Notes under the pieces: model-generated
Databases searched by the model: none
What the model was told of the DNA's origin: nothing
What the model saw: only the letters and a program-made list of their open reading frames with translations
From: Lachnospiraceae bacterium
Lineage (GTDB): Bacteria > Bacillota_A > Clostridia > Lachnospirales > Lachnospiraceae
Direction: 5' to 3'
Length of the DNA: 5,489 nucleotides
Assembly: GCA_017464045.1 (NCBI GenBank)
Contig: JAFUEG010000205.1
Location: 1-5,489 of the forward strand
Part shown: positions 2,990 through 5,489 of the stretch, in pieces
How positions within the stretch are numbered: position 1 is the stretch's first letter
How the letters are laid out: every line of letters starts with the position of its first letter
Translations under genes and position numbers: made by a program

Positions 2990-4354
2990 ATGAACAGAAA
3001 TGATTATTCTGCTGTAACTCCAATCTTTCGCGAGTTAGCAAAAAAATGTCAGACAAATGATATAATAGATCAGGAATTATATACCAAATATGAAGTAAAA
3101 CGCGGTCTTAGAGATTTAGATGGCCGTGGTGTCCTTACCGGACTTACAGACATTTCTACAATCAATGCATATAAAAAAGTGAATGGTGAGCTTGTTCCTA
3201 TAGACGGCGAGCTTTATTACCGTGGAATTAATATTTACAGTCTGGTGAAAGGATTTTCTAATGAGAACAGATTCGGTTATGAAGAAACTGTTTATCTGCT
3301 CTTATTTGGTGAGCTTCCAACTATAGAGAAATTAAATGAATTTAACATACTTTTAGGTTCATACCGATCTCTTCCTACCAACTTCGTAAGAGATATCATT
3401 TTAAGGACACCAAGCAAGGACATAATGAATTCACTTGCCAAGGGTATACTTAATCTAAGTTCGTATGACCTTAACGCCTCAGACATAAGCATACCAAATG
3501 TTTTGAGACAGAGCATTGAGCTTATAGCCAATTTCCCTTCTCTTGCAGTATACTCCTATCTTGCCTACAGACATTACGAATTAGGCAGAGGACTTTACAT
3601 ACATAATCCAAAGCCGGAGCTTTCAACAGCTGAAAACTTCTTAAGGCTTTTAAGAAAAAACAAGCAATATACAGAACTTGAAGCCAAGGTGCTTGACCTT
3701 GCTCTCGTGCTTCATGCTGAGCATGGTGGTGGTAACAATTCAACCTTTACAACTCACGTTGTAACATCTTCCGGAACAGATACCTACTCCTCTGTTGCAG
3801 CATCTCTTTGCTCTCTTAAGGGTCCAAAGCACGGTGGTGCAAATGTCAAGGTTAAGCAGATGTTCGATGATTTAAAGGAAAACGTAAGTGACTGGGAAGA
3901 TAAAGGCCAGATACGTGACTATCTGTGTGATATACTTGATAAAAAAGCCTTTGATAAATCCGGTCTTATATATGGTATGGGACATGCCGTTTACTCCATA
4001 TCCGATCCTCGTGCCAATATCTTCGGCAAGTTTGTCGGCAAGCTTGCAAAGGAGAAAAACCGCGAAGAAGAATATAATCTTTATGTAAATGTTGCCGAAG
4101 CAGCCAAGGAAGTAATCGCCGAAAAGCGTAAGATTTATAAAGGTGTAAGCCCTAACGTAGACTTTTACAGCGGATTCGTATACAGCATGCTTAACATACC
4201 GGAAGAGCTTTTCACACCACTCTTTGCCGTTGCCAGAATCGCCGGCTGGAGTGCACACCGTATTGAAGAGCTCATAAACGTAAATAAGATAATCCGTCCG
4301 GCTTACATGTCAATATCTGAAGACAGAGAATACATACCTATAGCTGACAGATAA
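2990..4354 (+). CDS. gltA: Citrate synthase (clostridial citrate/2-methylcitrate synthase type)
   Basis: The 454-residue enzyme condenses acetyl-CoA and oxaloacetate to citrate in the cytoplasm. In anaerobes of this kind it usually starts a partial TCA route to 2-oxoglutarate and glutamate. The catalytic set is complete: H281 in GPKHGGAN (278-285; E. coli H264), H332 in GMGHAVYSISDPR (329-341; E. coli H305) and D391 in NVDFYSG (389-395; E. coli D362). Oxaloacetate-binding positions are also kept: H242 and H245 in LHAEHGGGN, R341 in DPR, R416 in ARIAGW and R436 in RPAYMS. The N-terminal section (VKRGLRDLDGRGVLTGLTDIS, about 36-56) makes it longer than Bacillus-type enzymes of about 370 residues, as in other clostridial members. 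It appears to be transcribed alone: divergent from the hydrogenase and followed within 9 bases of its stop by a large hairpin element. A 2-methylcitrate synthase activity cannot be excluded from sequence, but no prp genes are nearby. Confidence 0.95.
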   Translation: MNRNDYSAVTPIFRELAKKCQTNDIIDQELYTKYEVKRGLRDLDGRGVLTGLTDISTINAYKKVNGELVPIDGELYYRGINIYSLVKGFSNENRFGYEETVYLLLFGELPTIEKLNEFNILLGSYRSLPTNFVRDIILRTPSKDIMNSLAKGILNLSSYDLNASDISIPNVLRQSIELIANFPSLAVYSYLAYRHYELGRGLYIHNPKPELSTAENFLRLLRKNKQYTELEAKVLDLALVLHAEHGGGNNSTFTTHVVTSSGTDTYSSVAASLCSLKGPKHGGANVKVKQMFDDLKENVSDWEDKGQIRDYLCDILDKKAFDKSGLIYGMGHAVYSISDPRANIFGKFVGKLAKEKNREEEYNLYVNVAEAAKEVIAEKRKIYKGVSPNVDFYSGFVYSMLNIPEELFTPLFAVARIAGWSAHRIEELINVNKIIRPAYMSISEDREYIPIADR

Positions 4355-4363
4355 GTGTGCCAT

Positions 4364-4639
4364 GGGCGTGAGCCTTGTCACATCTATACTGCTGTTATAG
4401 TACATCAGACAAAAGCAGGTCTATATGTTAGCTAGTCATCAATTTGCTAAATCAAAGCGCTCAAATTCTTTACAGGTGCTAAAAATCGAAAACTCGCTAC
4501 GCTCAAACAGTTCGATTTTTTTAACGCACCTATTGCGAATTATCGCTTTTGATTTTACGCAAATCGGACTAAATGCTAACATATAGACCTGCTTTTATCT
4601 AATGTACTGCAACCTTTTTATGTGAAAAAGCTCACGCCC
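4364..4639. repeat. 276-bp imperfect palindrome (large hairpin / MITE-like element)
   Basis: Two arms, 4364-4490 and 4511-4639, are reverse complements along almost their whole length, with a 20-base loop (4491-4510). Perfectly paired blocks are GGGCGTGAGC (4364-4373) with 4630-4639; AGTACAT (4399-4405) with 4602-4608; a 22-base block 4411-4432 with 4575-4596; AGGTGC (4474-4479) with 4526-4531; and AAAAATCGAA (4481-4490) with TTCGATTTTT (4511-4520). The stretch between the 22-base block and AGGTGC is diverged but alignable (shared ATTTGC, ATCAAA, AATTC). The element starts 9 bases after the citrate synthase stop and ends 17 bases before the stop of the convergent transporter gene, nearly filling the intergenic space. 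No coding capacity is seen. It could be a non-autonomous mobile element, a bidirectional terminator or a structured RNA; no clear target-site duplication flanks it. Confidence 0.85.
4481..4522. terminator. Possible bidirectional intrinsic terminator at the tip of the palindrome
   Basis: The apical stem AAAAATCGAA / TTCGATTTTT has a run of seven T (4516-4522) on its plus-strand 3' side and five A on its 5' side, so it could end transcripts arriving from either convergent gene. The core paired with high stability is only TCGAA/TTCGA and the loop is 20 bases, so on its own it would be a weak terminator. The surrounding 120-base stem would reinforce or compete with it. Confidence 0.4.
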
Positions 4640-4656
4640 CTATCATACTTATTCTT

Positions 4657-5489
4657 TTATGAAAATACTCCGAATGCTCCCAATAACAATATAAACAGGA
4701 GGATTGGTGCCACAACCTTTATCATGGCGATGTATAATTTCTTACGTCCGAACTTCTCACCATTCTTGGTAGCTTCATCTATAACCGTCTTTGGCTTTAC
4801 TATCCAACCGATAAGTATACAGGTTCCGATTGCAACGATTGGCATAAGTATGTTGTTACTTATGTAATCAAATATATCAAGAAGCTGTGCATTTGATCCG
4901 TTAGGAAGCTTAATGTCAAAGTAAAGCTTATTGTAGCCAAGACAAATAATTACGCCCAAAACAAGTGCTATAACGCCCTCCAAAATCGTGGCCTTACGTC
5001 TGCTTACCTTGAACTGATCCATAAGACTTGAAACTACCGCTTCAAGGACTGATATGGAGCTTGTAAGTGCCGCAAAAAGAACCATAAGGAAAAATACTGC
5101 TCCAAGTACATTTCCAATCTTACCCATCTCGGCAAATACTTTAGGTATGGCAACAAACATAAGTCCGGGACCGCCTGTCATGCCTTCCTTACCCATAAAT
5201 ACATATACGGCAGGAATTATCATAATACCTGCTAAAAATGCAACAAGTGTATCAAATATCTCTATCTGGTTAACTGACTTAACCAGATTATGGTCATCCT
5301 TAAAGTAGGAACCGTATGCAACCATGATACCCATAGCAACACTTATACTGTAGAAAAGCTGTCCCATGGCATCCATGATTACCACGAAGAAATCCTTAAC
5401 TCCCATTCCCGATACATCAGGAACCACATAAACCATAAAGCCTTCCAAACCGGTTCTTCCGGTCTCCTTGCTATGGATGGTAAGTGAGA
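4657..5489 (-). CDS. SNF/NSS-family sodium-dependent transporter, C-terminal part
   Basis: An open frame enters at the right edge (first whole codon 5487-5485) and ends at TAA 4659-4657, giving 276 codons. The ATG or other start lies outside the window; the TTG at 5448-5446 is an internal Leu in GRTGLEGFMVY, not a start. The family (TC 2.A.22, LeuT fold) imports amino acids or related solutes with Na+ across the inner membrane. Hydrophobic segments match TM6 (GQLFYSISVAMGIMVAYGSY), TM7 (TLVAFLAGIMIIPAVYVF), TM8 (FFLMVLFAALTSSISVLEAV), TM9, TM10 and TM11. TSS in TM8 corresponds to the Na2-site Thr/Ser of LeuT (T354/S355), and YSIS in TM6 to the unwound substrate region F253-T254-L255-S256. The protein stops directly after TM11, as in the 11-helix bacterial members such as MhsT. 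The substrate cannot be read from this fragment. Confidence 0.9.
   Translation of the reverse strand, partial: SLTIHSKETGRTGLEGFMVYVVPDVSGMGVKDFFVVIMDAMGQLFYSISVAMGIMVAYGSYFKDDHNLVKSVNQIEIFDTLVAFLAGIMIIPAVYVFMGKEGMTGGPGLMFVAIPKVFAEMGKIGNVLGAVFFLMVLFAALTSSISVLEAVVSSLMDQFKVSRRKATILEGVIALVLGVIICLGYNKLYFDIKLPNGSNAQLLDIFDYISNNILMPIVAIGTCILIGWIVKPKTVIDEATKNGEKFGRKKLYIAMIKVVAPILLFILLLGAFGVFS

Follow-up and report, generated by a model that had tools for sequence, protein, structure and literature searches.

A long palindrome between convergent genes of a Lachnospiraceae bacterium belongs to a repeat family with a conserved module on variable, complementary stems

Miniature inverted-repeat transposable elements (MITEs) and foldback elements are non-coding, dispersed inverted repeats with empty sites, and integron attC sites are strand-specific hairpins whose structure is conserved above the sequence of their stems. 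Here we describe a long palindrome at positions 4364-4639 of a 5,489-nucleotide stretch of Lachnospiraceae DNA (contig JAFUEG010000205.1 of assembly GCA_017464045.1), the whole of which is referred to as the window. The palindrome is real and is a member of a multi-copy repeat family, whose copies carry a conserved module on variable yet complementary stems, show a strand bias and lie mostly at the 3' ends of genes, with empty sites, inversions and differing interiors at the same sites in related genomes. Similar to MITEs and foldback elements the family is non-coding, inverted-repeat and dispersed and has empty sites; however, its stems vary from copy to copy instead of forming conserved terminal inverted repeats (TIRs), and there is no confirmed target duplication. 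With attC sites it shares a strand-specific hairpin whose structure is kept more than its stem sequence, but unlike in attC sites the tip is conserved.

The family also resembles REPINs and the repetitive extragenic palindromic (REP) sequences mobilised by REP-associated tyrosine transposases (RAYTs), which are described as extragenic, multi-copy, inverted-repeat hairpins in PMC3116915, where compensatory changes in the hairpin-forming spacer are also reported (Bertels and Rainey 2011). REPs are defined by a GTAG/CGTC tetranucleotide at the foot (PMC3733652) and TIRYT elements by the TIR motif GGGGWSAS (PMC3733652; PMC6006769). The likeness to REPINs may extend to the outer arms of the palindrome (B arms), which in the window are small inverted palindromes round a hairpin-forming spacer. 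In contrast to REPINs the centre is conserved rather than the ends, the window lacks the GTAG foot, no Y1 transposase gene was found in six of the eight carriers of the genus, and one tip motif is common to several phyla. A few copies with outer arms resembling GGGGWSAS recall TIRYT elements, and the tip copies of a genome outside the genus (G261) that read GTAG, with a Y1 gene between two of them, recall GTAG REPs. Unlike in both groups, the GGGGWSAS-like motif, even when loosened, is present on both sides in only 3 of 87 copies, and Y1 is not associated overall. The family appears to work like a REPIN; REPIN identity is not supported in the genus as regards the GTAG foot, the conserved ends and a dedicated transposase. 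No text in the open-access literature contained 15-16-letter pieces of the tip or the flanking repeat, and 13-letter pieces matched only papers unrelated by title. Within the open-access literature searched the family is apparently undescribed.

Copies in related genomes and their conserved module

Copy number was measured in related genomes and not in the source genome. An exact scan of the genome collection with one arm segment led to two Lachnospiraceae metagenome-assembled genomes (MAGs) from roe deer, G001 and G002, in both of which the match lies at the orthologous site and is ~89-90% identical to the window. The preliminary description of the palindrome, made from the letters of the window alone, had proposed a BLAST search of related genomes for additional copies, and many were found (67 matches in G001 and 42 in G002 at E≤10), many of which fall on its central part and, for G001, many on its outer ends. 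Within the nearest genus eight of 37 genomes gave matches at E≤0.01 and 29 gave none; the eight carriers had 14-32 matches per genome among the matches listed (at most 20 candidates scored). A sample of 200 genomes of the bacterial family contained four with a match, which in the three besides G001 comprised the tip alone (three candidates scored per genome).

Using the central 138 bp (4439-4576) as a probe and keeping matches that span ~100 of its columns, we obtained 92 copies from 101 sources, i.e. the window and 100 loci that were best-ranked among the matches listed. The central 138 bp are conserved among these copies, whereas the flanking stems differ by copy yet pair with each other. 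The perfect termini and diverged interior emphasised in the preliminary description are therefore reversed for the family, where conservation is central and variation is found in the stems. Enough flank for a stem test was available in 89 copies, where the pairing score outside the module reached a median of 63 for a copy's own stems versus 16 for cross-copy combinations. A copy's own pairing exceeded the 95th percentile of the cross-copy pairings in 86 of the 89 (L059, L085 and L124 fell below it) and the 99th percentile in 55, and the own right stem was the best partner in 62.

Core identity and stem identity are decoupled. Among pairs whose cores are at least 97% identical, eight same-site pairs had a median stem identity of 0.96 (0.69-0.99), whereas for 22 pairs from different sites the median was 0.66 (0.50-0.93), the shuffled baseline having a mean of 0.54 and a 95th percentile of 0.65. 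Among the 25 closest different-site core pairs, 15 of them between genomes, the drop in conservation falls a few bases from the module edge (L059, L039, L129, L108 and L070 were excluded from this analysis). Furthermore, in 11 chosen same-orientation pairs in which the copy was apparently retained, 543 of 605 stem pairs were unchanged and five showed double compensatory changes; this sum excludes flipped pairs, the window and the pairs of L061, and L099/L068 and L113/L068, which have unrelated stems, were not compared. Since the stems of retained copies change little, it is apparently the making or exchange of copies, and not steady drift, that generates stem diversity, as judged from these chosen pairs. 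Covariation, for which the preliminary description had proposed a check, was found in the core, where 20 of 47 pairs covary with at least two Watson-Crick types (88 sequences), a count based on the structure of the window minus strand and thus favouring that strand.

In four loci (L041, L081, L129, L130) core copies occur as inverted pairs ~170-270 bp apart. The loci L003 and L004 come from MAGs assigned to different species and are 99.7% identical over 4,889 bp, while the remaining copies of these genomes differ, which is likely due to a misbinned contig.

Same-site comparisons among sister genomes

At the window site both the outer arms and the core are still present in the sister genomes G226 and G228, with middle arms that are unrelated to those of the window yet complementary. 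Two others, G229 and G202, carry different, unrelated hairpins without the core in the same gap, which fits the earlier suggestion that the palindrome may have replaced the original terminators, although the order of events is not established. Cores in opposite orientation at a common site are found in L058/L037, L094/L075, L097/L063, L131/L126 and L077/L064, and in L094/L075 the interior differs within identical outer arms.

Empty sites were likewise looked for in relatives, as had been proposed. Twelve copies were queried, and for nine of them sister loci containing the two flanks were obtained (L182 and L183 were not used). The comparison thus covered nine filled sites and 18 sister loci, hairpins being called by eye. 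No comparable hairpin was seen in four sister loci (L168-L171, three sites), a simple hairpin in seven and a hairpin of a second family, T, in six; L164 appears to be a core deletion keeping the outer arms. The L055 site is empty by this measure in one sister and the L060 site in two. An origin of the stems by copying of the target flank on insertion was rejected, because the empty L055 and L060 sites contain neither stem. In one convergent-gene gap four sister genomes carry four different hairpins (L085 with L172, L173 and L174), and this set offers a clear test case for the replacement of bacterial gene-end hairpins.

Family T (tip like GCTTAGCANAGCGTTAAG...ACGTGCTNTGC; L045-L050, L165, L174-L178, L138) occupies similar sites, at times within the same B arms, and its stems likewise differ. 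In L033 and L164 the core seems to have been deleted between short direct repeats, leaving a scar and the outer or middle arms.

On balance we consider the element to be probably a non-autonomous, REPIN-like mobile long hairpin that is favoured or tolerated at gene ends. An immobile, vertically inherited structured RNA or two-way terminator under strong pairing selection would agree with the 3'-end placement, the covariation and the strand-specific wobble pairs described below, and some same-site copies are better conserved than the sequence around them, as in L086/L067 with a stem identity of 0.99 and flanks at 83-86%. However, empty sites, flips, non-homologous same-site stems and the high copy number make it highly improbable. 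Whole-interior gene conversion, by which elements with the same outer arms would swap interiors in either orientation through recombination over these arms, the stem diversity being old, could produce the flips and differing interiors in conserved outer arms (window/L078/L096; L094/L075). It seems unlikely, given that BLAST detected both B arms in only 16 of the fetched loci with the window-type core (A), a minority, and that, of the 25 closest different-site core pairs, 15 join copies from two genomes.

Alternatively, the core module may move into the loops of standing gene-end hairpins (terminators, REP-like palindromes), so that the stems belong to the site. This would explain why the module boundary is sharp and the stems are nearly unrelated between sites, why the outer B arms are common to copies with two interiors, A and T (L045-L050; L032 versus L165), and why the interiors of L094/L075 differ. 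Against it, no pre-existing hairpin is recognisable by eye in the sister loci L169, L170 and L171, the stems of different sites retain some likeness (median 0.66, shuffled mean 0.54), and a search for intact hairpins that have the same stems but lack the core yielded none, L033 and L164 looking like core deletions. Such homing to hairpin tips appears rather doubtful; if it took place, landing in hairpins would give mobile DNA a further, little-damaging way to spread. Similarly tentative is the idea of a new class of mobile DNA, with a module confined to hairpin tips that would be read as a folded single strand via a tip motif of at least three phyla and would move between gene-end stems, terminator hairpins being turned over rapidly.

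Strand bias, gene context and anatomy of the palindrome

Stem wobble pairs were counted in 82 distinct copies, the set left after removal of near-identical stems. They numbered 107 on the core-minus and 43 on the core-plus strand (p 1.8e-7, which is too strong because the copies are related), and by copy 45 lean to minus and 8 to plus. As the wobble pairs are biased to one strand, a single strand, either RNA or single-stranded DNA, seems to be the selected form. Sorted by gene context (73 copies), minus and plus wobble pairs amount to 46/18 in convergent, 29/7 in --, 16/12 in ++ and 3/0 in divergent surroundings, the difference between -- and ++ being borderline (p 0.056). Transcription may contribute to the bias and is insufficient to explain it alone.

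The 92 copies comprise 43 in convergent, 21 in ++, 17 in -- and four in divergent context and seven at an edge, so that 81 of the 85 placed copies are convergent or co-directional, i.e. at gene 3' ends. None of the 92 is located inside an open reading frame (ORF) of at least 120 amino acids (simple ORF calling, core-overlapping ORFs of less than 120 amino acids ignored).

In the window the palindrome occupies the gap of a convergent pair encoding a citrate synthase and an SNF-type symporter (Table 1). Its coordinates, the 22-bp perfect block, the perfectly pairing termini GGGCGTGAGC/GCTCACGCCC at 4364/4639 and the distances of 9 and 17 bases to the two stop codons had been given correctly for the palindrome as first described. 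The block lies inside the middle arms, which are 39 nt long and 90% complementary. Since the outer arms also pair, at 82%, the inverted repeat exceeds these ends and reaches 4351 and 4652 as a weak extension, entering the citrate synthase stop codon on one side and approaching the symporter gene to within 5 bases on the other.

Table 1. Positions of the palindrome's parts and of the adjacent genes in the window
Feature	Positions	Strand	Remarks
Citrate synthase gene	2990-4354	+	PF00285, E 7.6e-115; stop codon 4352-4354, ending 9 bases short of the originally described palindrome
Left outer arm	4351-4383	+	Contains REP-like B end GGGCGTGAGCCTTGTCACAT (4364-4383)
Left middle arm	4394-4432	+	Non-homologous to the same-site arm in sister genomes G226 and G228
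Conserved core module	4431-4576	-	Edges set at the sharp drop in conservation
Apical hairpin R1 (GGTGCGTTAA...tip...TTTAGCACC)	4475-4530	-	Modelled; relatives in three phyla
Tip motif TGTTTGAGCGTAGCGAGTTT	4490-4509	-	
Right middle arm	4575-4613	-	Complementary to 4394-4432
Right outer arm	4620-4652	-	Inverted B end
Sodium:neurotransmitter symporter (SNF) family gene, C-terminal part	4657-5487	-	PF00209, E 1.1e-27; convergent, 17 bases past the palindrome

Folded as RNA, the plus strand reached -117.3 kcal/mol (z -12.96) and the minus strand -138.8 kcal/mol (z -14.13), values equalled by none of 100 shuffles in either case. The window reached no gathering score in Rfam; its only match, MIR2630 at 33 bits (E 6.4e-5), was dropped as an identity because it lies far under the 144 bits needed. 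Four weak matches in ten further loci were all under the cut-off, and the "skipping-rope" RNA was discarded as a candidate, since none of the loci tried matched it in Rfam.

Search for a mobiliser and the tip motif outside the genus

Single B ends in L233, L236 and L243 form short palindromes (TGTGACAAGG-n-CCTTGTCACA) like REP singlets. Eight single-B loci inspected by eye, with ORFs listed for one and DDE families not searched, revealed no autonomous relative with the same TIRs round a transposase. Neither a GTAG nor a CGTC foot is present in the window or the B ends by eye. A Y1/RAYT transposase was rejected as the mobiliser, as it is not associated with carriage overall; G261 is the exception, for which a link is possible. 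In this genome (L271) the 5' side of four of six tip copies is GTAG, and at L271:2560-4460 the Y1 gene is situated among its own GTAG-type palindromes (GTAGGGGCGAC-type) with tip hairpins on both sides.

The exact tip motif TGTTTGAGCGNAGCGAGTTT was detected in 10 of 398 Bacillota genomes, the reversed-pattern control giving no match, and was absent from G001, where the tips are variants. A degenerate tip motif occurs in six viral contigs, whereas the arm, end and exact 30-nt tip patterns were unmatched among all viral contigs scanned, and phages gave no match to the element. Among plasmids matches were restricted to Ilyobacter and Aureibacter, and with the 38-nt tip to Ilyobacter, whose megaplasmid carries the tip motif ten times (TGTY allowed, one mismatch; control 0). 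Across 31 copies outside the genus, some of them near duplicates, self pairing was 44 versus 15 for mixed pairing (minimum 10).

A covariance model of the tip built from ten genus copies matched 33 of 39 sources and missed the six Y1 control loci. The best E-value within Aureibacter (Bacteroidota) was 8.8e-12 and within Ilyobacter (Fusobacteriota) 5.9e-11. These scores are not independent because most sources had been picked by the tip motif; the Aureibacter source came from BLAST. At E≤1e-4 the model matched 13 of 299 Bacillota genomes, including G001, which contributed to it, as well as G261, G241, G461 and G480, which the tip motif had missed.

According to the mobile-hairpin reading, the conserved central module with its conserved tip would be the recognised part, and one strand of it (the window minus strand) the functional hairpin. 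The family would spread to new intergenic sites, presumably through a single-stranded hairpin whose tip may be read by an enzyme, and would be tolerated or favoured immediately behind genes, in which position it may act as a bulky two-way gene-end structure. After arrival a copy would be kept at its site, while new copies would bear stems differing from those of other copies yet complementary. This reading would link the turnover of gene-end hairpins to a mobile repeat whose tip is common to many distant hosts. The foldback/MITE-like or structured family suggested at the outset is supported by multiple copies in sister genomes, empty sites and covarying stems with a strand bias; MITE status in the orthodox sense is not, as there is neither a confirmed target duplication nor a transposase partner in the searches made, which covered Y1_Tnp among the transposase families.

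Several observations weigh against the mobile-hairpin reading. The genomes are drafts, G001 and G002 being MAGs. By eye, a possible target duplication (ATACAT) was seen at L060 only and none at L055. Y1_Tnp (PF01797), the only transposase family searched, was not found in six of the eight draft genus carriers, and outside the genus it is present in 11 of 14 carriers and 10 of 16 non-carriers (p 0.44). The keeping of stems has exceptions, since some same-site pairs whose cores are less alike have unrelated stems (0.53-0.60). No paired stems are seen in the viral contigs L228 and L230, and the ten Ilyobacter copies form two subfamilies with common stems, which is why their self pairing does not exceed mixed pairing. 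In ++ surroundings the wobble bias is close to neutral, so that RNA and single-stranded DNA are inseparable, and local GC skew indicated no orientation bias to a replication strand (34 of 77 copies positive). Finally, a strict simple-pattern scan for intrinsic terminators (G+C stem followed by a T run) yielded no site in 4250-4750, and the gene-end function is therefore inferred from position.

The Ilyobacter and Aureibacter copies (L002:1440-1560; L001:1420-1560) adjoin AAAAGTAACCAAAAATCAAG-like repeats, and the Aureibacter copy sits between type I-D cas genes.
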